Shown piece by piece: positions 1 to 12,134 of a stretch of DNA of 64,000 nucleotides; position 1 is the stretch's first letter; each line of letters starts with the position of its first letter. The notes below the pieces were generated by a model that ran no database searches, was not told the origin of the DNA, and saw only the letters and a list, made by a program, of their open reading frames with translations. The translations under genes were made by a program, and so were the position numbers. Location: contig NC_014011.1 in assembly GCF_000025885.1 (NCBI RefSeq), forward strand, positions 1,860,001 through 1,924,000, in the 5' to 3' direction. The stretch comes from Aminobacterium colombiense DSM 12261 (lineage in GTDB: Bacteria; Synergistota; Synergistia; Synergistales; Aminobacteriaceae).

Positions 1-2528
1 TCCAGTTCATCAATGCGGGTTTTCAAATGACCGCGCTCTTCATTCAGCTCCTCCAGTTGCTGGGAAAGAAGCTGCTCCTGCTCTTTACTCTCACCTATGA
101 GGATTTGCGACTCTGCTGGTGTTCTTTTAGGGAGCTCCTCCAAAACTTTTGTGAGATTCTCGTTTCCGCCAGCTATGGCAAGAAGAGAGAGCCTGTGGTT
201 TTCAATGATCTTTTTCAGGTCGTTACAGCGCTGCCATCTCTCACCCAGCTCTAAAAAAGACGGCTCATCGTGAACCTTCGCCTGCTCAAACAATTCCTTT
301 TTTAGCGTTCTGCTTTCATTCCATGCCTTATGGGCTCTTTCGTATATCTCCTCGTTCCGTTTTTTCTCTCGTTGGATCATGGTTATCTGGTTCCACTGCT
401 CCTCTGCTTCTTCAAGGCGGGATGTGAGAATATCGATAGGAGAGACGAGACTAAGCTTGCTCCATGGACCTAAAGACAGTGAGCGGAAAAGAGAATGGAT
501 TTCCTCCTCCTTAGCTGATATATACTCCTGAGAAGAGGAGAGCTGCTTTTCCATATCCCTTATCTGAGCAAGCCGGCCGCGAAGCTGTTTGACCAGGCTT
601 TCAAATTCTGTCCAATGTTCTACTTTCAATGAAGCGGAGAATCCTTTCTCCTCTACAAAGCTTTTCCACTCTGCATCAGTTTGATCTAAAAGCTTTTTTA
701 TACTGTTGAGGGAGCTTTCGCAATCTTCGAGTTTCCTTTGGCGGCGACCCAGTTCTTCCTCCGCATCCCTTTGGGACTGAAGAGCCTGGTCGTACTCACG
801 AATACCGTCAATACAGTCATCGATATACATTTCTGCTTTCTCCAGCTCAAGATAATCCTTCGGGCACTCTATCGCCAGGCCTTCCACTGTATGGCTAAGC
901 TCTTCCTCTGTTTCTACAAGATTTTTTCTTAGGCGGCAAAGAAGCTCTTCTTTTTCATTGAAGAACTTCCTTTTCTGGAAAAAATCCACGATTATAAAAC
1001 CTAAGCTTGCAGCTATGGCTGTTATCCCTGTCTTCAAAAAGAATATGTCTCCTGTCCTGTAGCCCGCTCCAAGAAAAGCTAAACCTAAAGTTCCTGCTGC
1101 TGCCCCTCCCCACTGCAACTCTTTTTTCTGCCGGAAAAGGTCAAGATTCATTTCATTTTCTTTTATCTGATTTTGAATCTGATGCCAACGGGTGAAGAAT
1201 TGGCGTAACGATCCGCACTTCTCTCTCAATGTCTGAACTGACAGTGGGGAGACATTTCGTTCCATCTTCTCAACATGCTCTTTTCGTGTTTTAAGCAGGG
1301 ACCTTGCTTCGTCTCTGGCTTTTCGGGCCTGCTCGCAAGTTTCATTACGTATGACATGCTGATTGCGAAAATCTTCTTTCTGCTTTTCTAAATCCCCTGC
1401 TTTTTGGGAAACGCCAAAAGACAAATCAAGGGATTCCAGGTCATCAATAGTCCATGACTGATGGATTTCCCGTACCTCACGGTCAAGACGCTGTTTCATC
1501 GACAGAATATCTAAACTGAGATTCTGAATGATTTCTTCTTCTTTTTCGATGCGATTTCGATTCTGAGCCAGTGCCCGAATGGCGCCTTTCTGTTCAAGGA
1601 CCTTCTGAATAGAGGGAATATGGAAGGCCTGAAGCTGCTTGTCTAAGTTTCGGCATTGGAAGACCAGTTCCTCAAGTTCTCTTTCTCTAGCCCCTTCTTC
1701 CTCATGAATTTTTTTGAATCGCAGAAGACCTTCGTCTGGGAAAAAGAGAACTTCACCAATCTCTTCAAGCTTTCTCTGTGCTTCCGTCATTTCCACCCAG
1801 GGAGACCTGGCCTTTTCAACCCATTCCATCAAGGAAAGATCGTAACGGATGGCTTCTAAGTTTTTTCGCGCCGATTCTATCTGATGACCTGTCTTTTCCA
1901 ATTCTTCTTTCTTTTGCAGATACTCGTCTTTTTGTTGCTGGAGAAGTTTTATTTGTTCTTTTGTCTCCTGTATTTTTTTTAGGAAAACATTGATCTCCGC
2001 AGATGACCTGGCCCCGCCCTGAATTCTGTAAAGGGCCTTTTCCTGATTGGAAAGGGAAGCAAGGAATGTGGGAAGAGATGCTGTACCCAGTCCGGCGCCT
2101 GCAGAAAAAAAACGACTTTGTATTCCTCGATCATTGAGAGGACGTATCTTTTGCATATCCTCGAGACCTACGGAGAAGATACGCTCATACATTTCCCGAT
2201 CCACATATCCCAGAAGATCCTCAAGGCTTGTTCCATTCCGCGCACCTGAAAAAGTTGAGTTTCTGCCGTTCATGACCAGGCTAAACCGTTCGCCCTTGAG
2301 GGATTCAATAATTAAACTTCCCTTTTGCTTTCCTCCGTGGGGAGGGGCATATAGATTACGGCTGGAACGTCCGTCAGGGCACCCAAAGAGGCTATATCGC
2401 AAAAAGCTCATCAGGGTTGTCTTACCGCTCTCGTTATCTCCAAGGATAAGAGACAGACCTGCAGGAAAATGTCCTTCCATGTTCTCGAGGAGACCAAAAC
2501 TACGGATTTTGAACTCTATGAAACGCAT
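1..2528 (-). CDS. YhaN/SbcC-like AAA ATPase, C-terminus beyond window
   Basis: The start is an ATG at 2528 that overlaps the end of the upstream nuclease gene by 13 bp, so the two are translationally coupled. The protein begins MRFIEFKIRSFG and carries a Walker A motif (GDNESGKTT) at about residue 35, as in SbcC/RecN/YhaN-type ATPases. Most of the rest is charged, Glu/Lys/Gln-rich coiled coil. Around residues 470-515 there are two short hydrophobic stretches separated by a small loop, as in YhaN proteins, so the coiled coil may be tethered to the membrane. The family works with an SbcD-like nuclease in DNA end processing or repair. At least 842 residues are present; the C-terminal half of the ATPase head (signature and Walker B) lies outside the window. 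YhaN-like is favoured over SbcC because of the internal hydrophobic pair. Confidence 0.85.
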   Translation of the reverse strand, partial: MRFIEFKIRSFGLLENMEGHFPAGLSLILGDNESGKTTLMSFLRYSLFGCPDGRSSRNLYAPPHGGKQKGSLIIESLKGERFSLVMNGRNSTFSGARNGTSLEDLLGYVDREMYERIFSVGLEDMQKIRPLNDRGIQSRFFSAGAGLGTASLPTFLASLSNQEKALYRIQGGARSSAEINVFLKKIQETKEQIKLLQQQKDEYLQKKEELEKTGHQIESARKNLEAIRYDLSLMEWVEKARSPWVEMTEAQRKLEEIGEVLFFPDEGLLRFKKIHEEEGARERELEELVFQCRNLDKQLQAFHIPSIQKVLEQKGAIRALAQNRNRIEKEEEIIQNLSLDILSMKQRLDREVREIHQSWTIDDLESLDLSFGVSQKAGDLEKQKEDFRNQHVIRNETCEQARKARDEARSLLKTRKEHVEKMERNVSPLSVQTLREKCGSLRQFFTRWHQIQNQIKENEMNLDLFRQKKELQWGGAAAGTLGLAFLGAGYRTGDIFFLKTGITAIAASLGFIIVDFFQKRKFFNEKEELLCRLRKNLVETEEELSHTVEGLAIECPKDYLELEKAEMYIDDCIDGIREYDQALQSQRDAEEELGRRQRKLEDCESSLNSIKKLLDQTDAEWKSFVEEKGFSASLKVEHWTEFESLVKQLRGRLAQIRDMEKQLSSSQEYISAKEEEIHSLFRSLSLGPWSKLSLVSPIDILTSRLEEAEEQWNQITMIQREKKRNEEIYERAHKAWNESRTLKKELFEQAKVHDEPSFLELGERWQRCNDLKKIIENHRLSLLAIAGGNENLTKVLEELPKRTPAESQILIGESKEQEQLLSQQLEELNEERGHLKTRIDEL

Positions 2529-3826
2529 GGGTCATTCTCCCCCTTAAGCAGCCCGTCCAATCCCTTTATAGCGGCTTTTTCAAGAATTTGAGCAATGTCT
2601 TCCCTTTCCAGGGTTTGCAGGTAGGGCTCCAGGTCGCCGCGCCTCCATTTCCCATTCCCCAAGCCCTCATCCATAAGTGCAAAAAGTGTTTCATTGTCGT
2701 GTATCTGAGATCGGACGGTATCCATCTCTCTGAGAAAGTCCCCCACAAAGGTCTGGGTCTTCCGAAGGTTTTCTATGGCATAATCAGGACAGGTTTTATT
2801 CTGGATGGCCTCAATCCATACAAAGTCGGACAAGGCCTCTTCCTCCCTATTGAGTTCCCTTATCAAGGTTTCCATGAATTCATCCCGGCCTAATCGCCTG
2901 TAAAGACTCGTATTTCCCGTCAATGTCACACGAAGCATAATGCCCCTGCCCTCCGCTTCCTTACGGTATTTTCCCCTAAGGTTTTCGAGGGCATCCATGA
3001 GAACCTGCTCTTCCTCCACAGAGGAAATATCAAGGGTTTCTTCCCACCAGCGAATTTTATCTGTAGGATAGAAAATCGGAGAGATGAAGCCCTGTGCCGA
3101 TACCGTCACAAGGTAGCATCCGCGAGGGCCCGTTTCCCTTACACTCCTCCCCTGAATTGTTCCCGGGTAGACCACTAGTGGATTTTCACATGATAGAATC
3201 ATGGGGCGATGGATATGCCCCAAAGCCCAGTAATCCACAGAAGAATCCCGAAGATCTTCAATAGAACATGGGGCATAATTCTCGTGGCCCTCCATGCCCC
3301 CTACATTGCAGTGAAGAAGGGCGACATTAAATCCCTTCCTGCTTTCAAGGGCTTTTGCCATTTGAATGGCGACATTGCCCCTTTCATCCCCAGTGGGGTA
3401 ACTATATCCTGCTATGTGGCCGATAAGGGCATTATTTTTTCCGTATAAGGGACGGACCTCTACCTCACCCTTAAATTGGAAAACCCTCTCTGGGAGACTT
3501 AATTTTGCCCGATCTCCAGAAAGGGGGTCATGGTTCCCATGAACCATATACACGAATATTCCAGCCTGGCTTAAACGAAGAAGCTGCCGCCTAAGGGCAA
3601 GTTGGGCACTGAGGCTTCTATCAGCGCTATCATACAGATCTCCGGAAAGGAGCACAAAATCCACTCGCTCCCGCAGTGCCAGGTCAACTACTCTTTCAAA
3701 GGATTTAAAGACCGCATCCTGCAGCATGCCCGCAATTGCCGGCGAATAAGAACGTACCCCCCGAAAGGGACTGTCCAGGTGCAGGTCTGCACAGTGAAGA
3801 AACGCAAAATCCCGCTGAAGGCCCAT
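2516..3826 (-). CDS. SbcD/YhaO-like DNA repair metallophosphoesterase
   Basis: This 436-residue protein has all calcineurin-like phosphoesterase signatures in order: DLHLDSPF (D-x-H) near residue 15, SGDLYD near 62, GNHDP near 98, a histidine in ALLHCNVGG near 170 and GHIHRP near 202. These residues form the di-metal (Mn) site of SbcD/Mre11-type exonucleases. About 200 residues follow the catalytic domain and presumably hold the partner-binding region. The ATG at 3826 is preceded by a strong Shine-Dalgarno sequence (GGAGGG). The gene overlaps the downstream ATPase start, giving the classical nuclease-ATPase pair. I infer a role in trimming or opening damaged DNA ends. The substrate cannot be told from sequence. 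Confidence 0.9.
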   Translation of the reverse strand: MGLQRDFAFLHCADLHLDSPFRGVRSYSPAIAGMLQDAVFKSFERVVDLALRERVDFVLLSGDLYDSADRSLSAQLALRRQLLRLSQAGIFVYMVHGNHDPLSGDRAKLSLPERVFQFKGEVEVRPLYGKNNALIGHIAGYSYPTGDERGNVAIQMAKALESRKGFNVALLHCNVGGMEGHENYAPCSIEDLRDSSVDYWALGHIHRPMILSCENPLVVYPGTIQGRSVRETGPRGCYLVTVSAQGFISPIFYPTDKIRWWEETLDISSVEEEQVLMDALENLRGKYRKEAEGRGIMLRVTLTGNTSLYRRLGRDEFMETLIRELNREEEALSDFVWIEAIQNKTCPDYAIENLRKTQTFVGDFLREMDTVRSQIHDNETLFALMDEGLGNGKWRRGDLEPYLQTLEREDIAQILEKAAIKGLDGLLKGENDPCVS

Positions 3827-3861
3827 TCCACTGCCCTCCTTCTTCTGTTAGACTTTTATTT

Positions 3862-5103
3862 ATGATGACAACAATATTTCTAGGAAAGGGACTTGTTTAT
3901 ATTATTTTCATTCTCGTCTATCTTGGCATGATCGTCGGACGATTTCCATCATTGGCTCTCGACCGAACCGGCATCGTGCTGCTTGGAACCATTATATTGC
4001 TTATTGCAAGTCCTTTCCCCCCAGAGATCCTTTTCCAGGCTGTGGATATCTCCACAGTAATGCTTCTTTTTGGCTTTATGATTATTTCCGCTCAATTACG
4101 GCTAGGGGGATTTTATACAATAATAACCCAAAGGGCAGCAAACCTCGAAGGTCCCCCTCAAAAGCTTTTGGCCGTGGTTATTATCGTCTCAAGCGCTCTT
4201 TCCGCCCTTCTTTCCAATGACATCATATGCCTTGCCATGACCCCTGTCTTAGGAGAAATCTGCATCAAGAAGGGACTAAATCCTCTTCCTTTCTTACTCT
4301 CCCTGGCCTGTGCCGCAAATATAGGATCGGCATTGACCCTTATCGGCAATCCTCAAAACATGCTTATCGGTCAAAGCCTTCTTCTTCCCTTTGGACCCTA
4401 TATGCTTTTCGCCCTCATACCAGTGGTTGTATCTCTTTTTGTTCTCTGGGGCATAGTCTGTTTCCTGTATAGACAACATTGGCATGAAACCCTTCCTCTG
4501 CCGCAGAAGGTAAACCTTCCTTTCCTGGGCTGGCAGACTGCAAAGGGGATTCTTGTTCTGTCTGTTGTGGTCGTCCTTTTTCTTTTCGCCCCTCTGCCCC
4601 GTGACATGGTAGCGCTAGGTGCCGCGGCTATTCTGTTAACAAGCCGTACCATGGCCTCTCGCAAGGCCCTTAACCTTGTAGACTGGCAACTGATCGTTCT
4701 GTTCATAGGTCTCTTTATTATAAACGGTGCTTTCGCAAAAAGTGGAGGACTCGCAGCCATAGAAAAAGGCCTGCACATGGCAGGGATCTCTCTCCAGCAC
4801 GGAAGCTGGCTTTTCTGGATATCGGCCATCCTTTCTAATGTGGTTTCTAATGTTCCCGCCGTCATGCTGCTTCTTCCGCTCTCAAAGATCCCCCTGGCAG
4901 GACCGATCCTGGCATTAAGCAGCACCTTCGCAGGAAATCTCATCGTCGTAGGGAGTATCGCCAACATTATTGTGATCAATGGGGCCAGGGATCTGGGACT
5001 CGCTATTTCATGGAGGGACCACGCTCGTATTGGCATACCTGTTACTTTAACATCTCTTCTTATTTCATGGATTTGGATTTTTGCTGGAGGGCCCCTATGG
5101 TAA
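3862..5103 (+). CDS. SLC13/ArsB-NhaD-type anion permease (YbiR-like)
   Basis: A polytopic membrane protein of about 413 residues with roughly 10-12 hydrophobic segments. Small/polar breaks such as NDIICLAMTP and GNPQNMLIG are typical re-entrant motifs of the ion transporter superfamily (SLC13/CitMHS/ArsB/YbiR). I place the start at ATG 3862 (or 3865), 35 bp from the divergently transcribed nuclease gene, because the open frame farther upstream only mirrors that gene. No good Shine-Dalgarno sequence precedes it, so the exact start is uncertain. The last codons overlap the start of the next gene (ATGGTAA), so the two are probably co-transcribed. The substrate is unknown; the family moves dicarboxylates, sulfate, arsenite or Na+. 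Confidence 0.8.
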   Translation: MMTTIFLGKGLVYIIFILVYLGMIVGRFPSLALDRTGIVLLGTIILLIASPFPPEILFQAVDISTVMLLFGFMIISAQLRLGGFYTIITQRAANLEGPPQKLLAVVIIVSSALSALLSNDIICLAMTPVLGEICIKKGLNPLPFLLSLACAANIGSALTLIGNPQNMLIGQSLLLPFGPYMLFALIPVVVSLFVLWGIVCFLYRQHWHETLPLPQKVNLPFLGWQTAKGILVLSVVVVLFLFAPLPRDMVALGAAAILLTSRTMASRKALNLVDWQLIVLFIGLFIINGAFAKSGGLAAIEKGLHMAGISLQHGSWLFWISAILSNVVSNVPAVMLLLPLSKIPLAGPILALSSTFAGNLIVVGSIANIIVINGARDLGLAISWRDHARIGIPVTLTSLLISWIWIFAGGPLW

Positions 5104-6137
5104 CAATTTGTTTGGGAACAGTTGCTCCTTCCCGCTACTCTATAGGTAAAGATGTTATTGCCAGGCAGCTGCGAGAAGAGGGGTATTGCCTTATAGATCT
5201 GGGGGGAAACATCACTGTCCAAACCCTGGAAGAAGCCTTTTCTCGAAAAACCTTTAGCCTTCTAGCCCTTTCCTGTCCTGAAGAGGAATGTTTAAATGAG
5301 CTGAACTTTCTTATATCCTGGGCCGTTAAACAATCCATTCCCGTCCTTATAGGCGGAAGGGCTGTTAATGTTCATGACGTCGCAGCCTTGCGTTCCGCGT
5401 TGAAAGCCCCTTTTCTCTATTACAGCTGCAATGTCACCGATCTTCTGCCGGTTGTTCAAAAAGCGCTGAAGCTCGAGCCCCCGGCCATGCCCCTCCATGG
5501 TAAAGGAAAACCCTTCTTTCTTTTCGAGGAAGAAAAGGCTCTCGCTGAAGAGATGGGGCTATGGATCTTAGAAGGAAACAGGGACCATGTGGTTATTCAT
5601 GAAAGAACCCGACAATGGTGCGGCGAGTGCCCTGGCAACATAAACCGCACATGTCCTATGAGCAGCGGCTATTTTGTCCAGAGATCCATACAAGAAAGCC
5701 GACTCTTTGTAGAAAAATTCCGCCGCCTGTTCCTTATCGGCCTTCCAGTGCTGAAGAGAGAAGAACGAGAAGTGGAAAGAAAGGGGAGAATAGCCATATG
5801 GCTGGCCATGAAAAAGCTTGAAGGAGCTTTTTCAAAACGTTTTTCACAGGCTGTCATGTTCAAACTGCCCATTCAGTGTCCTCTCTGCCCGCCTGAGGAC
5901 TGCATCATGCCCCTGGCCAGATGCCGCCGGCCCCAGGATCAGTTTCCCATGCACGAAGAATATAATATAGACATGATGGAAACGGCCCGCGTTATTGCCG
6001 GGGACAGAAGATCAATGGAGATGTATGCCCTTCTTCTGGCCGATCCTTTTCCAAAGGAAAAAGTAAACCAGGATAGATGCCCCGAAAGCAAAGAGAGAAA
6101 AGCCCCTGAACGCCCACGAGATTCCTGCCAAGGCTGA
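5097..6137 (+). CDS. B12-binding-like domain plus two cysteine clusters
   Basis: The start is an ATG at 5097 with GGAGG 7 bases upstream; it overlaps the permease stop. Of 346 residues, the first 125 resemble a cobalamin-binding Rossmann domain: IGKDVIARQL, then IDLGGN, then VLIGGRAV. However, the D-x-H-x-x-G loop that supplies the cobalt-ligating histidine reads S-R-Y-S-I-G, so normal base-off B12 binding looks lost. The C-terminal half has cysteines at about 175, 178, 186 and at 261, 264, 269, 276 (CPLCPPEDC), followed by LARCRRP. This arrangement resembles DUF2284-type predicted metal or Fe-S binding proteins. I do not recognise an exact family. The last 126 bp overlap the convergent MFS gene. 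Confidence 0.65.
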   Translation: MVTICLGTVAPSRYSIGKDVIARQLREEGYCLIDLGGNITVQTLEEAFSRKTFSLLALSCPEEECLNELNFLISWAVKQSIPVLIGGRAVNVHDVAALRSALKAPFLYYSCNVTDLLPVVQKALKLEPPAMPLHGKGKPFFLFEEEKALAEEMGLWILEGNRDHVVIHERTRQWCGECPGNINRTCPMSSGYFVQRSIQESRLFVEKFRRLFLIGLPVLKREEREVERKGRIAIWLAMKKLEGAFSKRFSQAVMFKLPIQCPLCPPEDCIMPLARCRRPQDQFPMHEEYNIDMMETARVIAGDRRSMEMYALLLADPFPKEKVNQDRCPESKERKAPERPRDSCQG

Positions 6138-7196
6138 TGCATATCCAATATAGACCGGCAGAAGGGTCCAGCTGATATCCATGGAAAAATACACCATGGA
6201 TGATGCCCTCCCTCTGAATCGCTCAGGAATCATATCTCCAATAAGGGCGAGGTGAGTGGGATATCCGTACCCAACTGCAGCGCCGTAGAGGAAACCAAAG
6301 AAGGCGATCATGAAATTCGAAGCGGCGAAGGAAGCGCCGAAAAGGGCCAGTCCCATGGCCCCAAAGGATGGAGCTGCTATGACCGTTCGCGGTACCCTCT
6401 CATAAAGCCCACTGCCAAAGAGCCTGATAATAATCGCTCCGATGGAAATAGCCACCATATAGACTGATGGGTTGAGACCTCTGCCAATGGCAAGACTTGA
6501 TACATAGGCAATGGACGCATCCGTAAGTCCCAGGAAAACACAGGAAATCAGAAGAAATTTTATGGGCGTTTCCTTGAAAAGAGCCGCATAAGAAGTTTTT
6601 TGAGTTTTGTTCGAAGAAAAATCCTGCTGGACAGGGGGGAGAAGAAAGGCCATGGACATTGCCCAAAGGGATGCCGCGGAAGCCATGAGCAGATAGGGAA
6701 GGTCCCAGCCCCGGTTAATAAAAAGTTCAGCCAGAGGAATAATGGTAAAAGCTGTCATTACCCCCCCAATACTTGTAATAGCAAAGGCAGAACCTCGTAT
6801 TCGCTCTGGAATGACAAGGGATTGGTAGGTTGTTGTGGAGACTACAAAAACACTGAAACCGCCTCCCATAAAAAGACGAATAGTATAGAGGATTCCAGGC
6901 GTATGGTCGGTAAAAGCCAACAAAAGGGCGGAAACAACGCAGATACTCGAGGCCCCAACCATGGTTCTCCGTATTCCGAAACGGTCTATAAACCACCCCG
7001 CGGTGGGACGGCATAGTGTAGCGGCAAGATAAAAAGCGCTGATGATCCAGCCAATGCGCTGAGGCTCCAGACCGGCCTTTTTCAAAAAAGGCGGCAACAT
7101 GAAAAAAGTATGAGAATAAGAAAAAATAGCAAAGTAGGTAAGGAGTATAAGAATAATCCGCTTTCTCCACGATGCGAGCTCCGATCCACAGAACAA
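6012..7196 (-). CDS. MFS transporter
   Basis: A 394-residue, 12-segment major facilitator. The loop between segments 2 and 3 has the family signature (AGWFIDRFGIRRT), and a long polar loop follows segment 6 (residues about 190-205). The start is a TTG at 7196 with AAGGGGG about 9 bases upstream; an ATG 22 bases farther up is out of frame. The protein resembles monocarboxylate/oxalate-formate antiporter-like MFS carriers in general shape, but nothing in the sequence fixes the substrate. It is transcribed divergently from niaR across a 120-bp gap. Its 3' end runs 126 bp into the convergent cysteine-cluster gene. Confidence 0.85.
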   Translation of the reverse strand: MFCGSELASWRKRIILILLTYFAIFSYSHTFFMLPPFLKKAGLEPQRIGWIISAFYLAATLCRPTAGWFIDRFGIRRTMVGASSICVVSALLLAFTDHTPGILYTIRLFMGGGFSVFVVSTTTYQSLVIPERIRGSAFAITSIGGVMTAFTIIPLAELFINRGWDLPYLLMASAASLWAMSMAFLLPPVQQDFSSNKTQKTSYAALFKETPIKFLLISCVFLGLTDASIAYVSSLAIGRGLNPSVYMVAISIGAIIIRLFGSGLYERVPRTVIAAPSFGAMGLALFGASFAASNFMIAFFGFLYGAAVGYGYPTHLALIGDMIPERFRGRASSMVYFSMDISWTLLPVYIGYASALAGISWAFRGFSLFAFGASILVYFFLWKRIGQKKGIHLH

Positions 7197-7280
7197 TTAA
7201 ATCGCCCCCTTGATGCATTCACATTAAGACCCTCCGCATTCTTTGTAAAGCCCCTTCTGCGAAGAATGTTGCCAATAGGC

Positions 7281-7286
7281 TATAAT
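7281..7286 (+). promoter_or_regulatory. Candidate -10 element of niaR
   Basis: A perfect TATAAT lies 33 bases before the niaR start codon. The matching -35 position (TGCGAA with a 17-base spacer) is weak. The call rests on the -10 match and its location. Confidence 0.4.
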
Positions 7287-7318
7287 ATCTGAGTTGACCC
7301 ATAGGGGAGGAATAAAAA

Positions 7319-7834
7319 GTGAAGGGACCTGAACGGAGAAAGAGAATTTCTAACATTCTCAATACAAGTCAATCAGCAGTGAAGGGAAACGAGCTTGCGG
7401 AAACCTTCAATGTGAGCCGGCAGGTGATTGTTCAGGATATAGCCCTGTTGCGGGCAGAAGGGCATAACATTATAGCAACGCCCCAAGGATATATGATGCT
7501 TTCACCACACCAACCCTCCTCACTAAGATCAATTATGTGCAATCATACTGGAATCAAAGAGATGAAAGAAGAACTTGATATTATGGTGGATAATGGAGCC
7601 ACTGTTATTGATGTCATGGTAGAACATCCCGTATATGGCGAGATAATAGGCAACCTCATGCTCCGAAACCATGAGGACGTGGAAGAGTTCATTGAAAAGG
7701 TTATTCAGACAAAGGCGGAACCTTTATCAATCCTGACAAGAGGCGCCCATTTTCACACATTGGAAGTACCTAATGATGCAACGTTTCAAAAGATAATCGC
7801 GGCTTTAAAGAAAAAAGGGTACTTGATGGATTGA
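7319..7834 (+). CDS. niaR: Niacin-responsive transcriptional repressor NiaR
   Basis: This 171-residue protein has an N-terminal HTH_11 winged helix (residues about 5-60, NVSRQVIVQDIALLR) and a C-terminal 3H domain with the conserved histidines in VEHPVYGE and TRGAHFHTLEVP. The order and length match NiaR (YrxA), which binds nicotinic acid and represses NAD synthesis or niacin uptake genes. The start is a GTG at 7319 with AGGGGAGG 7 bases upstream. A transporter gene follows 56 bp downstream, and the gap contains a long palindrome of NiaR-operator type. That makes direct regulation of the transporter likely. Confidence 0.92.
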   Translation: MKGPERRKRISNILNTSQSAVKGNELAETFNVSRQVIVQDIALLRAEGHNIIATPQGYMMLSPHQPSSLRSIMCNHTGIKEMKEELDIMVDNGATVIDVMVEHPVYGEIIGNLMLRNHEDVEEFIEKVIQTKAEPLSILTRGAHFHTLEVPNDATFQKIIAALKKKGYLMD

Positions 7835-7848
7835 GTTAAAACCTATAT

Positions 7849-7884
7849 ACTCCTTTACAAGTGACAAGACACTTGTAAAGGAGT
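7849..7884. promoter_or_regulatory. Putative NiaR operator (15-bp perfect inverted repeat)
   Basis: The arms CTCCTTTACAAGTG and CACTTGTAAAGGAG, plus one flanking A/T pair, are exact inverted repeats around the 6-base spacer ACAAGA. The core GTGTCTTGTCAC read on the minus strand resembles the NiaR box core I recall from Firmicutes and Thermotogales. The right arm contains the ribosome binding site of the next gene (AAAGGAG, 7 bases before the ATG). The element could therefore act on DNA, or as an RNA hairpin hiding the ribosome site. There is no T tract, so it is not an intrinsic terminator of niaR. Confidence 0.75.
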
Positions 7885-7890
7885 TGTTCC

Positions 7891-8901
7891 ATGTTGAGCA
7901 ATAAAAATCTTCGTTCCTACGCTATCAATGTTTTTAATGGAATGGCACTGGGTTTGTTTGCTTCTCTCATTATTGGGCTTATCCTCAAACAGTTAGGCGC
8001 TTTTCTTTCTATTCCCATTCTTGAGCACTTCGGTAAAATAGCACAACTTCTTATGGCTCCAGCTATAGGGGCGGGCGTCGCTCTTAGCGTCAAATCACCG
8101 CCATTGGGGGTATTTGCTGCCTCAATTGCTGCAGCAATAGGGGCCGGATCTATCAACTTTACAGACAACGGGGCTATTCTAACTATAGGAGAACCCATGG
8201 GAGCCTTGGTGGGGAGCCTTGTGGGAGCAGAAGTCACCAAGCTCATCGCTGGGAAAACGAAGGTGGATATCGTTCTTGTCCCCGCCGCAACAATCCTCGC
8301 CGGGGGGCTGGCGGGATATTTGACCGGGCCATGGATTGCTCAGGGAATGAATTTTTTGGGAGCCCTCATCAACACGGCAACGCGCCTCCATCCATTTCCT
8401 ATGGGAATTCTGGTTTCTGTACTCATGGGCATTATTCTTACCCTTCCCATTAGCAGTGCCGCTCTCGCCATAGCCCTGGGGCTCAACGGCCTTGCCGCCG
8501 GAGCTGCCACTGTAGGCTGCTGCTGTCAGATGATTGGATTTGCCGCCCAGAGCTACAAGGATAATGGTGTGGGAGGACTTATCTCCCAGGGGCTAGGTAC
8601 ATCCATGATTCAAATTCCCAACATTATCCGCAATCCATGGATATGGGTTCCTCCCACCCTTGCTTCCGCCATTCTCGGACCAGTAGCCACTATGGTCTTT
8701 AAGATGGAAAACAATAAGGTGGGCGCGGGAATGGGAACAAGCGGACTGGTTGGACAATTTGGAACCATAGCAACCATGGGAGGCTCCGGATGGGTGGGAA
8801 TCGTGACCCTTCACTTTCTACTCCCTGCTCTCCTCAGCACTCTTTTTTGTCTTATTCTGCTGAAGGTTAAAAAGATCCGCCCCGGCGACATGAGGTTATA
8901 A
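7891..8901 (+). CDS. PTS EIIC_2-like membrane permease, putative niacin transporter
   Basis: A 336-residue, Gly/Ala-rich polytopic protein with about 9-10 membrane segments. Motifs such as VGCCCQMIGFAAQSY and SQGLGTSMIQIPNI are characteristic of the PTS_EIIC_2 family (PF13303). These are EIIC-like permeases usually annotated as sugar transporters although they occur without EIIA or EIIB; none is encoded here either. Position directly behind niaR and its operator suggests that nicotinate, nicotinamide or another pyridine is the cargo. The membrane family call is firm. The niacin role is inference from context alone. Confidence 0.75.
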   Translation: MLSNKNLRSYAINVFNGMALGLFASLIIGLILKQLGAFLSIPILEHFGKIAQLLMAPAIGAGVALSVKSPPLGVFAASIAAAIGAGSINFTDNGAILTIGEPMGALVGSLVGAEVTKLIAGKTKVDIVLVPAATILAGGLAGYLTGPWIAQGMNFLGALINTATRLHPFPMGILVSVLMGIILTLPISSAALAIALGLNGLAAGAATVGCCCQMIGFAAQSYKDNGVGGLISQGLGTSMIQIPNIIRNPWIWVPPTLASAILGPVATMVFKMENNKVGAGMGTSGLVGQFGTIATMGGSGWVGIVTLHFLLPALLSTLFCLILLKVKKIRPGDMRL

Positions 8902-8912
8902 AGAACACATAC

Positions 8913-8948
8913 AAGGGGATTCCATCTACCAGGGGAATCCCCTTTTTT
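8913..8948 (+). terminator. Intrinsic terminator after the EIIC-like gene
   Basis: An 11-bp perfect stem (AAGGGGATTCC with GGAATCCCCTT) and a 10-base loop are followed by six T residues, 12 bases after the stop codon. Confidence 0.85.
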
Positions 8949-9075
8949 ATAAAATATATTCAAGCCGCAAAAAGATTTACCCCCCCTTCCCATACCTTTT
9001 AATTTCATGTATTATTTTTAATAATTTATCATTTTCTTAAAAGAGCAATATTCTTCCTTTCAGGAGTGTGATTCT

Positions 9076-10713
9076 TTGCCCAATTATACAAATAGCAACC
9101 TCTCCACAGAAATGAGAGGGAACATCTTGCGTCGCTCTCTATGGATACTGCCTATTCTCCTAGCAACGATATGGCTCATGGGGCGCTTCTATTCTATGGA
9201 AATCGCCCAAGAGCAGGAGCTGCTCGAGAGTCTGGAATACCAAAGCAGCCTCTCACGCCTTGAAATTGCTCGCCAACGCATGGATACCGTCCTTAGCGAT
9301 CTGTTCTTTTTAAACCACGTAGCAAGCTATGTATGGGTTGACGGCGTATTATCACCTCATGAGCAAGGATATATTGAAAATTTTTTTCGCTCTTTCATCG
9401 AAAACAAGGTCTATTATGACCAAATCCGCATTATCGACATGTTTGGACAGGAGTTCATCCATATTGAAAAAAGGGATGGAAGCTCTGTCATTGTGCCTCC
9501 GCATAAAAGGGATAAAAGTTCAGAGGAACATTGCTTCAATCACTCTATCAAACTGGAAAGAAACCAGGTGTACCTCTCTCCTCTTAATCCTCATCTGAAC
9601 TATGAAGAGATGGAAGGTTCCTTAAAGCCCCTGCTCCATATAGCAACTCCTATTTTTGCAGGAAACAATACTAAGATCGGTGTTTTGATCATCAACTATC
9701 TGGCTCGTGATCTGTTAGATACCCTTTATTCCTCTTCTGCCATGGGAAATATTATGCTCCTCAACAAAGACGGTTTCTGGCTGGAAAGTTCGAACCAGGA
9801 AATAGAAAAAGAGATACAGACTCAAAAGAACCGAACCAGGAATTTCTTTACCCTTTACCCCGAGGAAGCAAAAACGATTTACTCCCAGAAACAGGGGCAG
9901 GTCAAATCATCAGATGGTCTTTTTACCTTTGTCACCATAGGCCCCCTTGACTCCATGGCTCTTACACAGGAAGCCCGTGATTATGAATGGAAGATTGTTT
10001 CAATGATCCCTGCTTCTATGCTGGAATGGCGTGAAGAGGCCATAAAAAACCGCTTCAGAACCCTTTTAGGCATTGTCGTTCTGATTCTCTCTGTTGCGAT
10101 CTTTCTTTTTATAGTTGAATACGAACGCCGGCAAAAAATACATGTTCACTTAAAAGAGAAGACCCTTGAGCTCGAAAGGGTCAACATGGCCCTTAACGCC
10201 ATGGTTAAAAAAACAGAACGGGATGCCATGATAGATCCACTGACAGAACTTTGGAACCGCCGGTATATGATTAAGCGCCTTCACGAGGAGGATGCCCGCA
10301 TTCAGCATACCCAAGGGAGCGCCTCCATCGCCGTCATTGACCTTGGCAATTTTAAAAAGATTAATGATACCTATGGTCATGCCAGAGGGGACAGAGCCCT
10401 TGTGCAAATAGCCGCTATACTCAGAGAAGGGTTACGGCAGACAGATTACGTAGCCCGCACAGGGGGAGACGAATTTCTCATCTATTTTGCAGATCTTTCC
10501 TTAACAAAGGCAAAAAAGATTATGGAACGTCTCTATAACCGCATTATGCAGCATAGGTTTGCCGGGGCAAATTCACCTATTTTCGCTGATTATGGTATCG
10601 CCCATTGTCCTTCTGACGCAGACAGCCTTGAAGAAACCGTCAAAGTAGCAGATTCGAGGATGTACGCGTTCAAGGTCAACCGAAAGAAACATACGGCCGA
10701 CACCGGAAAATAG
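9076..10713 (+). CDS. Membrane diguanylate cyclase with periplasmic Cache-like sensor
   Basis: 545 residues: a membrane segment at about 18-38, a periplasmic region of roughly 280 residues resembling double-Cache sensors (LSRLEIARQRMD, then YDQIRIIDMFGQE), a second membrane segment at about 325-348, a short coiled coil and a C-terminal GGDEF domain. The active site GGDEF is intact at residue 463. RQTD, five residues before it, is a standard RxxD inhibitory site, so the enzyme should make c-di-GMP and be product-inhibited. The start is a TTG at 9076 with AGGAG nine bases upstream. Promoter signals should lie in the AT-rich 127 bases after the preceding terminator. The extracellular ligand is unknown. 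Confidence 0.9.
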   Translation: MPNYTNSNLSTEMRGNILRRSLWILPILLATIWLMGRFYSMEIAQEQELLESLEYQSSLSRLEIARQRMDTVLSDLFFLNHVASYVWVDGVLSPHEQGYIENFFRSFIENKVYYDQIRIIDMFGQEFIHIEKRDGSSVIVPPHKRDKSSEEHCFNHSIKLERNQVYLSPLNPHLNYEEMEGSLKPLLHIATPIFAGNNTKIGVLIINYLARDLLDTLYSSSAMGNIMLLNKDGFWLESSNQEIEKEIQTQKNRTRNFFTLYPEEAKTIYSQKQGQVKSSDGLFTFVTIGPLDSMALTQEARDYEWKIVSMIPASMLEWREEAIKNRFRTLLGIVVLILSVAIFLFIVEYERRQKIHVHLKEKTLELERVNMALNAMVKKTERDAMIDPLTELWNRRYMIKRLHEEDARIQHTQGSASIAVIDLGNFKKINDTYGHARGDRALVQIAAILREGLRQTDYVARTGGDEFLIYFADLSLTKAKKIMERLYNRIMQHRFAGANSPIFADYGIAHCPSDADSLEETVKVADSRMYAFKVNRKKHTADTGK

Positions 10714-10742
10714 TTGCATATGCAACGAATATCTTCTATACT
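10713..10742 (+). promoter_or_regulatory. Promoter with palindromic operator for the MATE-marR operon
   Basis: TTGCAT (10714-10719), a 17-base spacer and TATACT (10737-10742) form a good sigma-70-type promoter. The -35 lies inside a perfect 14-bp palindrome, GTTGCATATGCAAC (10713-10726). Palindromes of this size over a -35 are typical MarR binding sites, and a marR-type gene is second in the operon. Autoregulation is inferred. Confidence 0.7.
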
Positions 10743-10775
10743 AATCTCTCGTTTTATAAACATGGAGGGATGAGT

Positions 10776-12134
10776 ATGGATCGGCGTGAATTACTTGCAA
10801 AAGAACGGGTGGGACGGCTGCTTTGGCGGCTCTCCGTCCCCGCGGTTATAGGGATGTTGGTTCAGGCATCCTACAATATAGTCGATGCTATTTTTATAGG
10901 CCGGGGTGTGGGGCCTCTTGGCCTTGCGGGAACGACTATTGTTTTTCCCATTCAATTATTGGCCTCATCTCTTGCCGTTACCATTGGGGTAGGAGGCGCT
11001 TCCATTATTTCCCGCAGCCTTGGGGCCAAAAAATATGAAAAGGCGAACAGGGCTCTTGGAAACATGGTCTTTCTCTCGTTAATATTCAGCACCACCATTC
11101 TCATTACGGGTTCCCTTGCTCAACAGCGTCTCCTTCGTCTTTTTGGCGCGAGTCCTACTATCCTTCCTTACGCTGAAGAATATTTACAGGTCATTTTGAT
11201 GGGCCTGCCCTTTGTGGGATTTGGCATGTCATTGAACCACGCGGCCCGGTCAGAAGGCAATGCCAGGGTTGCCATGATCAGTATGATCATATCTGCTGTC
11301 ATGAACATGATATTAGATCCTATCTTCATCTTTGTGCTTAATATGGGCATTCGCGGGGCTGCCATAGCCACCGTGATCTCTCAGATAGCCATGGCCTGCT
11401 GGATGGGTTACTATTTTCTGTTATCCGGAAACAGCTTTCTTGTACTTGCCCTTCGCTATGGACAACCCCAATTGGAATACATTAAAGAGATTCTCTCTGT
11501 AGGGGCAGCGGAATTTGTACGCATGGCCTCAGGGAGTATGATCATAGTCTTTATCAATAACAGCCTTATCCATTACGGCAGTGATATTTCAGTAGCTGTA
11601 TATGGCATATTGCATCGGGCACTCTCTTTTTCTTTTCTGCCCATTGTGGGAGTTTCCCAGGGATTACAGCCCATACTTGGCTTCAACTATGGGGCAGGAC
11701 GGTACGACCGCGCTCGAGATGTCGCGCGCCTTGCAATTATAGCCGCATCATGCATTGCCTTTTGTGCCTTTATGGTCGGGATGTTCTTCCCGGAAAAAGT
11801 TGTCAGGCTTTTCACTACAGATCTTCTTCTCATCAAAGAAGCAAGTGCTTCTTTGCGTATTGTGATCACGGCTTACTTTCTTGTGGGATTCCAAATTACA
11901 GGTTCGTCCATGTTTCAGGCCCTCGGAAAGGGCAGGGCTTCCCTTATTTTGTCTTTGACCAGACAGGTTATTTTCTTTCTTCCCTGCGTGGTTATTCTGC
12001 CGCGATTTTTCCTTTTAAAGGGCATATGGCTAGCCTTCCCCACTGCGGATGCTCTTGCCTTTCTTGTTACGGTAACTCTTGTTTCCCGACAATTAGGAGC
12101 TCTTAAAATGGAAAGGAGTGAACAAAACCAATGA
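10776..12134 (+). CDS. MATE family efflux transporter
   Basis: A 452-residue protein with 12 predicted membrane segments in two related halves. The N-terminal motif (PAVIGMLVQASYNIVDAIFIG) and the second-half GVSQGLQPILGFNYGAGR are classical for MATE multidrug or Na+/H+ antiporters of the NorM/DinF-like group. I choose ATG 10776 because GGAGGG is six bases upstream; an in-frame ATG at 10770 directly abuts that motif. The stop overlaps the marR start by four bases (ATGA). Drug or metabolite export controlled by the adjacent repressor is the usual arrangement. Confidence 0.9.
   Translation: MDRRELLAKERVGRLLWRLSVPAVIGMLVQASYNIVDAIFIGRGVGPLGLAGTTIVFPIQLLASSLAVTIGVGGASIISRSLGAKKYEKANRALGNMVFLSLIFSTTILITGSLAQQRLLRLFGASPTILPYAEEYLQVILMGLPFVGFGMSLNHAARSEGNARVAMISMIISAVMNMILDPIFIFVLNMGIRGAAIATVISQIAMACWMGYYFLLSGNSFLVLALRYGQPQLEYIKEILSVGAAEFVRMASGSMIIVFINNSLIHYGSDISVAVYGILHRALSFSFLPIVGVSQGLQPILGFNYGAGRYDRARDVARLAIIAASCIAFCAFMVGMFFPEKVVRLFTTDLLLIKEASASLRIVITAYFLVGFQITGSSMFQALGKGRASLILSLTRQVIFFLPCVVILPRFFLLKGIWLAFPTADALAFLVTVTLVSRQLGALKMERSEQNQ

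Follow-up and report, generated by a model that had tools for sequence, protein, structure and literature searches.

A niaR-linked PTS_EIIC_2 permease gene of Aminobacterium colombiense as a candidate determinant of vitamin B3 import

Introduction

NiaP is a protein of the major facilitator superfamily (MFS), and NiaX a component of energy-coupling factor (ECF) systems. Both, along with NiaY, are named as niacin transporters that are controlled by the repressor NiaR or take part in uptake, at least in those portions of the literature on which we draw (PMC5343564, PMC7713382, PMC6593275, PMC6018154, PMC8400222). Here we consider a pair of adjacent genes of Aminobacterium colombiense DSM 12261, lying in a stretch of 64,000 nucleotides (NC_014011.1, positions 1,860,001 to 1,924,000 of the forward strand; 'the window' below) of a genome that is a single contig of 1,980,592 bp and belongs to the phylum Synergistota. 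The upstream gene, niaR, is followed by a gene for a permease of the family PF13303, known as PTS_EIIC_2 (PTS, phosphotransferase system). The predicted job and the predicted repressor of this permease are those of NiaP and NiaX, but these belong to other protein families, the window permease being a PF13303 protein with a predicted EIIC fold; NiaR control and predicted niacin import would likewise be in common with NiaY. We argue that the permease is probably a PTS-independent, NiaR-repressed importer of vitamin B3, most likely in the form of nicotinate, and that its control by NiaR, as judged from sequence, is very likely indeed.

The gene pair and its intergenic region

The original prediction had placed niaR and the permease gene side by side and assigned the permease to the PTS_EIIC_2 family, and both the positions and the assignment proved correct (Table 1). 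The two domains of the niaR product are well supported (HTH_11, E 1e-15; 3H, E 2e-33), and it matches the solved structures of NiaR from T. maritima (9ebr and 1j5y, E 2e-41 to 3e-41) and B. halodurans (7cv0, E 1e-38). The metal/niacin residues of the T. maritima protein, given as His79, Glu87, His146 and His148 in the relevant part of PMC7713382, all align with residues of the window protein (H76, E85, H144 and H146), which by this comparison is a true NiaR. It is encoded by the sole 3H gene found across the host genome, as the permease is by the sole PF13303 gene, and the permease matches its family over model positions 2-326 of 327 (339 bits against a cut-off of 28.9; E 3e-101).

Table 1. 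Coordinates of features in the window and in comparable loci of other genomes
Sequence	Feature	Position	Strand	Remarks
Window	niaR, niacin-responsive repressor	7319-7834	+	GTG start; 171 amino acids; Pfam HTH_11 and 3H
Window	Permease promoter, TTGATG - 17 bases - TATACT	7823-7851	+	Consensus scan; -35 in last niaR codons
Window	Predicted NiaR operator, 15-bp perfect palindrome	7849-7884	+	Core TGACAAGACA at 7862-7871; arms 7849-7863 and 7870-7884
Window	Ribosome binding site AAAGGAG	7877-7883	+	Within right arm of palindrome, 7 bases before ATG
Window	PTS_EIIC_2 (PF13303) permease gene, candidate vitamin B3 importer	7891-8901	+	ATG start; 336 amino acids
Window	Terminator-like hairpin and T run, 3' of permease gene	8931-8943	+	
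L033	ATCTGCTAGTAGCAGAT-type palindrome	near 1260		
L034	ATCTGCTAGTAGCAGAT-type palindrome	near 720		
L038	ATCTGCTAGTAGCAGAT-type palindrome	near 1250		
L096	Twin-site Bacillota box	900-960		
L098	Twin-site Bacillota box	5950-6000		
L103	Twin-site Bacillota box	1-60		
L108	Twin-site Bacillota box	5940-5990		
L033-L036, L038-L040, L042-L049, L051, L052, L054, L055	Symporter-type niaR locus			
L057-L060, L069-L072, L077, L078, L081	Symporter-type niaR locus (continued)			

The palindrome between the two genes was described in the original prediction as perfect and as overlapping the permease ribosome site, and so it is: its arms pair at 15 of 15 positions round a spacer of 6 bases, and the right arm holds AAAGGAG. 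It begins on the last bases of the promoter -10 and ends just past the ribosome site. On the other strand the core of the predicted operator reads TGTCTTGTCA, with TTTACA and TGTAAA as flanking half-sites. Perfect inverted repeats of this kind (arms of at least 15, loops of up to 10) have three placements in the window, the operator palindrome among them, and none occurred in any of 20 dinucleotide shuffles of it. Twelve boxes from other Synergistota, without that of the window, served to make a weight matrix, which gave the site 34.0 bits, against 12.3 bits for the next best in the 64 kb. When the whole genome was searched for TTTACAAGTGN6CACTTGTAAA with up to three mismatches, it yielded the operator site (no mismatches) and a single further place, at 974136; the reversed control pattern had no match. 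The place at 974136 has three mismatches and is inside an open reading frame, and we rejected it as a second operator. The consensus scan for promoters gave 6 promoter-like sites in the stretch, compared with 3.0 expected.

A NiaR repressor is expected to bind, when niacin is present, a box of the form TGT-N4-ACA or ACA-N5-TGT. The window box agrees, save for one base, with the TGT-N4-ACA core of the type-I NiaR boxes of Firmicutes, but unlike them it has the core TGA-N4-ACA and is embedded in a longer perfect palindrome with flanking half-sites. The pneumococcal NiaR operator appears as TACWRGTGTMTWKACASYTRWAW in the part of PMC5343564 that deals with it, and the reverse strand of the window (TACAAGTGTCTTGTCACTTGTAA) shows one mismatch to this, counted by eye.

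Linkage of niaR and EIIC_2 genes in other genomes

Recurrence of the linkage in related genomes, on which the original prediction had staked itself, was found in Synergistota and in Bacillota alike, with both box and promoter conserved. Among 185 Synergistota genomes, EIIC_2 genes were present in 62 (61 above cut-off), NiaR in 52 and both in 19; in 14 of these 19 the two genes are adjacent on the same strand. In the other five (G125, G126, G128, G129 and G150) niaR adjoins nadC, and nadA is close by in three of the stretches. Outside relatives came from a genome-contig search that found at least 538 EIIC_2 relatives, of which the best 80 were used, and a purpose-built profile detected niaR in 10 of the 80 stretches. 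It immediately precedes EIIC_2 in three Synergistota, in Clostridium sp. Cult3 and in metagenome-assembled genomes (MAGs) of Tissierellia (two), Lutispora (one) and Clostridiaceae (one); in Acidaminobacter (L095) and Natroniella (L128) niaR is again upstream, at a distance of about 3.4-3.5 kb. The adjacent pairs known from Bacillota (L092, L096, L098, L108 and L115, together with that of Acetoanaerobium noterae) are individual cases and do not amount to a rate.

In Acidaminobacter and Natroniella the intervening space is filled by NAD biosynthetic genes, giving the order niaR-nadA-nadB-nadC-EIIC_2 on one strand, with gaps between nadC and EIIC_2 of 12 and 4 bases, respectively. Pfam confirmed NadA and NadC of both runs, and the gene between nadA and nadC in Acidaminobacter matches an FAD-binding family. 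Both runs have a box ahead of nadA (15.1 and 18.8 bits) and none ahead of EIIC_2; these scores, like those of the unlinked genes mentioned below, come from a matrix of 14 boxes of which one (L004) was out of register.

In a tree of 74 EIIC_2 rows, the NiaR label (24 rows) requires 11 changes compared with 20.5 in shuffles, and at least 7 of the 11 are forced by starred branches; L089, L090, L091, L106 and L145 were excluded from the tree, L140 is absent from it, and L154 and L127 carry no label. By this measure the NiaR-linked rows are clustered, yet do not form one clade. No niaR lies in the stretch examined from Fusobacterium vincentii (L189), and the annotated neighbourhoods of L190 and L191 contain no NAD genes, that of L190 having genes for HPr and enzyme I within about 3 kb. 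Distant EIIC_2 proteins (about 29-32% identity in the rows listed) are also carried on plasmids of Enterococcus and Lactococcus, which account for 189 of 200 matching plasmid records; where annotated, they are mostly named 'PTS sugar transporter subunit IIC', and none of the 60 plasmid records listed names EIIC_2 as a niacin carrier.

Conservation of the box and promoter

All 14 linked Synergistota loci have a box between niaR and EIIC_2, that of L008 being the weakest. At three of the orthologous sites the TGT-N4-ACA core is exact (L007, TGTCAAGACA; L009, TGTCAATACA; L013, TGTAAATACA), and the reverse complement of the L007 core is TGTCTTGACA, a sequence held by the oligonucleotide to which B. 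halodurans NiaR binds together with niacin, according to the portion of PMC7713382 concerned. Variation in the box is symmetrical (TTTACAGGTG...CACCTGTAAA in some loci and TTGTCAGGTG...CAGCTGACAA elsewhere), a pattern in keeping with recognition by a dimer. A TTG-N17-TA...T promoter precedes the box, with its -35 in the tail of niaR, in every one of 20 niaR-EIIC_2 pairs examined (14 from Synergistota and 6 from Bacillota), while of 4000 random windows of 190 bases from these loci, 240 contained the pattern at any position.

A matrix of 13 in-register Synergistota boxes was then applied to 76 of the 77 loci L092-L168 (L124 was too short; L106 and L145 are from Synergistota). Ten of them have boxes of at least 13.9 bits ahead of EIIC_2 (L103, L134, L098, L108, L154, L115, L092, L096, L140 and L114), below which come L161 with a marginal 11.6 bits, L127 with 7.0, and all others with 4.5 or less. 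Seven of the ten belong to genomes that have NiaR. The L103 contig has 69 bases ahead of the permease match, and no NiaR was found in its assembly; in L114 (Clostridium) and L134 (Bacillaceae) niaR lies outside the stretch, so control there would act in trans. Among 29 genomes searched for NiaR, boxes of at least 10 bits occurred in 7 of 13 with NiaR versus 1 of 16 without (Fisher p 0.01, to be taken as a guide only, since the threshold was chosen after the scores were known and the genomes are related). We also note strong NiaR-like boxes at L140 and L154 (15.6 and 22.6 bits), which are from Lachnospiraceae and a Thermoanaerobacterales MAG and whose genomes fall outside the 29. Bacillota boxes resemble two type-I sites 12 bases apart (TGACAAGACAGGTGTAAATACA; Table 1), which suggests two dimers side by side.

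Vitamin B3 requirement and the gene beside niaR

NadA was found in 8 of 121 Synergistota genomes that were at least 90% complete, and in none of the ten linked genomes among them, that of the window included. None of the 14 linked genomes has a NadC match that reaches the cut-off, which all three nadABC controls pass; a match in G034 scored 142 bits where the cut-off is 198. The host genome does encode a short-type nicotinate phosphoribosyltransferase (NF006415; 483 bits against a cut-off of 243), which matches PDB 2i14 with E 1e-83; the classical PncB family PF04095 was looked for in the host genome and not found. An organism that has the phosphoribosyltransferase, no NadA and no NadC above cut-off should live on imported nicotinate or nicotinamide, and on its gene content the window organism looks like a vitamin B3 auxotroph. 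Outside the linked Synergistota, NadA was not found in G194 or in G185-G190, six genomes whose pair is complete or cut off; it is present in both genomes with nadABC runs and in G193, in which niaR adjoins nadA.

The gene beside niaR in the 52 Synergistota genomes falls into few types: EIIC_2 in 14, a symporter of the sodium:solute symporter family (SSF) in 30 (Table 1), nadC with or without nadA in 5, and none of these in 3. The SSF symporter, which belongs to PF00474 in the single case tested, is a second candidate for a NiaR-linked niacin carrier, and in several loci a small protein of about 65 amino acids is encoded between it and niaR. Immediately upstream of niaR, many of the niaR-symporter operons have a different palindrome, ATCTGCTAGTAGCAGAT or a sequence near it, which is perhaps a third type of NiaR box; of 19 loci scored, 3 have it in perfect form, and in others it is degenerate. 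In one of the genomes in which niaR adjoins nadC (G128, locus L076) NadA was not found; it is possible that the first steps of the pathway have been lost there, or that quinolinate is salvaged.

Permease fold and PTS capacity

An AlphaFold2 model of the permease, made from a 50-row alignment (mean pLDDT 93.7, pTM 0.87), resembles the glucose-superfamily EIIC proteins PtsG IIC (8qsr; Z 16.2 over 308 residues), MalT (6bvg; Z 15.3) and ChbC (3qnq; Z 12.0), and no non-PTS structure exceeded Z 6.2. On the strength of this model the permease has the glucose-superfamily EIIC fold, shared over its whole chain, which says nothing of the cargo. The sequence itself gave a single chance-level match among solved structures (E 0.43). 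The permease differs from the PtsG, MalT and ChbC systems in sitting at the putative operator of a vitamin repressor, and in a host with no match to the enzyme I N-domain and with no EIIA or EIIB among the genes scanned.

That the permease has no EIIA or EIIB partner at this locus, as originally claimed, was borne out by a Pfam scan of the seven genes of 3736-12131 (the pair included), to which the search for these partners was confined. The enzyme I N-domain (PF05524) was also not found in the host genome (G000), in a search that did not extend to HPr or the enzyme I C-domain; the same profile found it in 79 of the 121 Synergistota genomes and in the E. coli and B. subtilis controls. Without this domain the permease would appear unable to work as part of a PTS in the window's genome. 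Two further linked genomes, G031 and G119, likewise gave no match to it.

Proposed mechanism

A real NiaR, an operator and a promoter that are both conserved, and the recurrence of this arrangement in two phyla make up the case for NiaR control. The case for vitamin B3 as cargo comes from the nadABC runs, from linked genomes that lack NadA and NadC, with the phosphoribosyltransferase present in that of the window, and from what occupies the place beside niaR. We favour nicotinate over other single candidates because the host has an enzyme to use it; nicotinamide is possible if there is a nicotinamidase. The cargo, direction of transport and driving force of the permease we infer, as we do the binding of NiaR to the window box and repression by niacin.

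NiaR binds its own effector in solved structures, as stated in the part of PMC7713382 referred to above, and by analogy with those other NiaR proteins the window protein may be expected to hold niacin. Niacin-loaded NiaR would bind the palindrome from the -10 over the expected transcription start, and so switch the permease gene off. At low niacin NiaR would release the operator, and the permease would be made and would import vitamin B3 as a plain carrier, employing the EIIC fold without phosphotransfer. Imported nicotinate would be trapped by nicotinate phosphoribosyltransferase and passed on to NAD, and the niaR-permease pair would constitute a self-contained switch for vitamin B3 uptake.

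Alternative explanations and points of difficulty

How might the same facts be otherwise explained? A NiaR-controlled permease could serve some other compound of NAD metabolism, such as quinolinate, nicotinamide riboside, aspartate or an exported NAD breakdown product; a carrier for quinolinate or another precursor also fits the position of EIIC_2 after nadC in the two nadABC runs, and the NiaR of S. pneumoniae also controls pnuC, for a nicotinamide riboside carrier, in the account given in part of PMC5343564. We think this unlikely: the linked Synergistota, none of which has NadC above cut-off, could do little with imported quinolinate, and the window's genome has the enzyme for nicotinate. 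It is extremely improbable that the permease is an ordinary sugar PTS component that stands beside niaR by chance. Its Pfam name and its fold would suit such a role, as would the enzyme I N-domain of several linked genomes, but the host has no match to that domain and no EIIA or EIIB among the genes scanned, the NiaR box is conserved in two phyla, EIIC_2 has its place in the nadABC runs, and hhalign could not relate the permease sequence to that of E. coli PtsG IIC (E 0.57). We rejected a sugar PTS component for the host because the enzyme I N-domain was not found there; in relatives that have enzyme I such a role may still apply.

Instead of a carrier, the EIIC_2 protein might conceivably be a sensor or regulator in the membrane, acting in concert with NiaR; PfoR of C. 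perfringens, once called a regulator, is presumably a member of the PTS_EIIC_2 family. The tight pairing with a regulator gene would agree with this, and so would an older proposal, met with in a portion of PMC4448169, that pfoR regulates a neighbouring gene. It is improbable, however, given that NiaR itself binds effector in solved structures (PMC7713382, in the part cited earlier) and that in sister genomes the place beside niaR is taken by a transporter of another family. Even less probable is that the palindrome is not a protein operator and acts as an attenuator, an RNA hairpin hiding the ribosome site. The predicted transcript fold is indeed very stable (-25.2 kcal/mol, z -5.6, with none of 200 shuffles as low) and has the ribosome site in its stem, but the promoter -10 overlaps the left arm, so that the permease's own transcript, from the start site that we infer, would lack much of that arm. 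Comparison of loci shows, moreover, that the core of the box and its position after the promoter are conserved, which does not hold for the long left arm or for the overlap with the ribosome site (L003, L004, L005 and L006). A hairpin on transcripts reading through from niaR may nevertheless hide the permease ribosome site, as a possible second lock.

Several observations weigh against a NiaR-repressed vitamin B3 importer, or limit its generality. At the level of the box, there is the one-base departure of the window core from that of type I, the retention of just 4 of 6 core bases in L008, and the failure of the matrix to find any box ahead of niaR itself (best -2.5 bits), for which reason we rejected autoregulation of niaR. 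Boxed loci L140 and L154 have no niaR within the stretch examined; conversely, no clear box was found ahead of EIIC_2 in the NiaR-bearing genomes G203, G205, G208 and G206 (L121, L125, L162 and L127, with upstream scores of -1.8, -3.8, 1.7 and 7.0 bits), nor in any of 16 unlinked Synergistota EIIC_2 genes scored (best 6.2 bits). A NiaR match is missing from 43 of the 62 EIIC_2-bearing Synergistota genomes which, with the absence of a box from the 16 unlinked genes, means that the link to niacin does not extend to the EIIC_2 family at large. Seven of the ten linked genomes that are at least 90% complete (G017, G025, G026, G029, G034, G040 and G101) have the enzyme I N-domain, so that its absence excludes phosphotransfer only in the other three. 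A carrier of another NAD precursor, or an exporter, would also be compatible with the nadABC linkage. Finally, the genome G030, of the same genus, has a phosphoribosyltransferase match and no match to NiaR, EIIC_2 or NadA, and must use another vitamin B3 importer.

Neighbouring features

Directly upstream of niaR, and divergent from it, is a gene for an MFS carrier (6012-7196; MFS_1, 135 bits), and the matrix scan found no NiaR box facing it. The region 5010-6137 encodes a protein in which a stretch resembling a B12-binding domain, scoring below cut-off, precedes a DUF2284 metal-binding domain. The evidence for a terminator after the permease gene is weak, as the two overlapping candidates do not exceed the 2.7 expected by chance.

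Relation to NiaY and wider significance

The defining paper for the predicted transporter NiaY is reportedly that of Rodionov and colleagues, from 2008, and we take NiaY to be the protein called 'predicted nicotinate-regulated transporter BH3254' in SEED. The chances seem to us about even, or a little better, that NiaY is of the same family as the permease (PF13303). NiaY is reported from five genomes of Bacilli and Clostridia in a part of PMC5343564, and boxed EIIC_2 genes occur in those groups too (L134 in Bacillaceae, L114 in Clostridium). Our search, whose coverage did not include the NiaY-defining paper, found no literature linking PF13303, COG3641 or PfoR with niacin. The original proposal of a candidate new niacin transporter under NiaR is supported by the linkage, the box, the nadABC runs and the apparent auxotrophy as regards niacin, while its newness is not established, as NiaY may be the same family. 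If it is, the Synergistota pair extends by one member a family already predicted, and our contribution lies in the fold, the missing enzyme I, the runs with nadABC, the auxotrophy and the exchange of places with the SSF symporter.

A bolder generalization, possible though on balance doubtful, is that an EIIC-fold protein has left the sugar PTS, and that NiaR-boxed PF13303 proteins, absent from the niacin carriers described earlier, import vitamin B3 in both Synergistota and Bacillota, being repeatedly paired with niaR or nadABC and swapped with an SSF-type symporter.

In human gut genomes NiaP, NiaX or NiaY could be confidently detected in just 25% of predicted vitamin B3 auxotrophs, according to a portion of PMC6593275. 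If our interpretation of the permease is true, it would fill part of this gap, and the misleading name 'PTS sugar transporter subunit IIC' would be corrected in several phyla. It would also follow that the EIIC fold is able to serve as a plain vitamin carrier, and that these Synergistota are predicted to need niacin.

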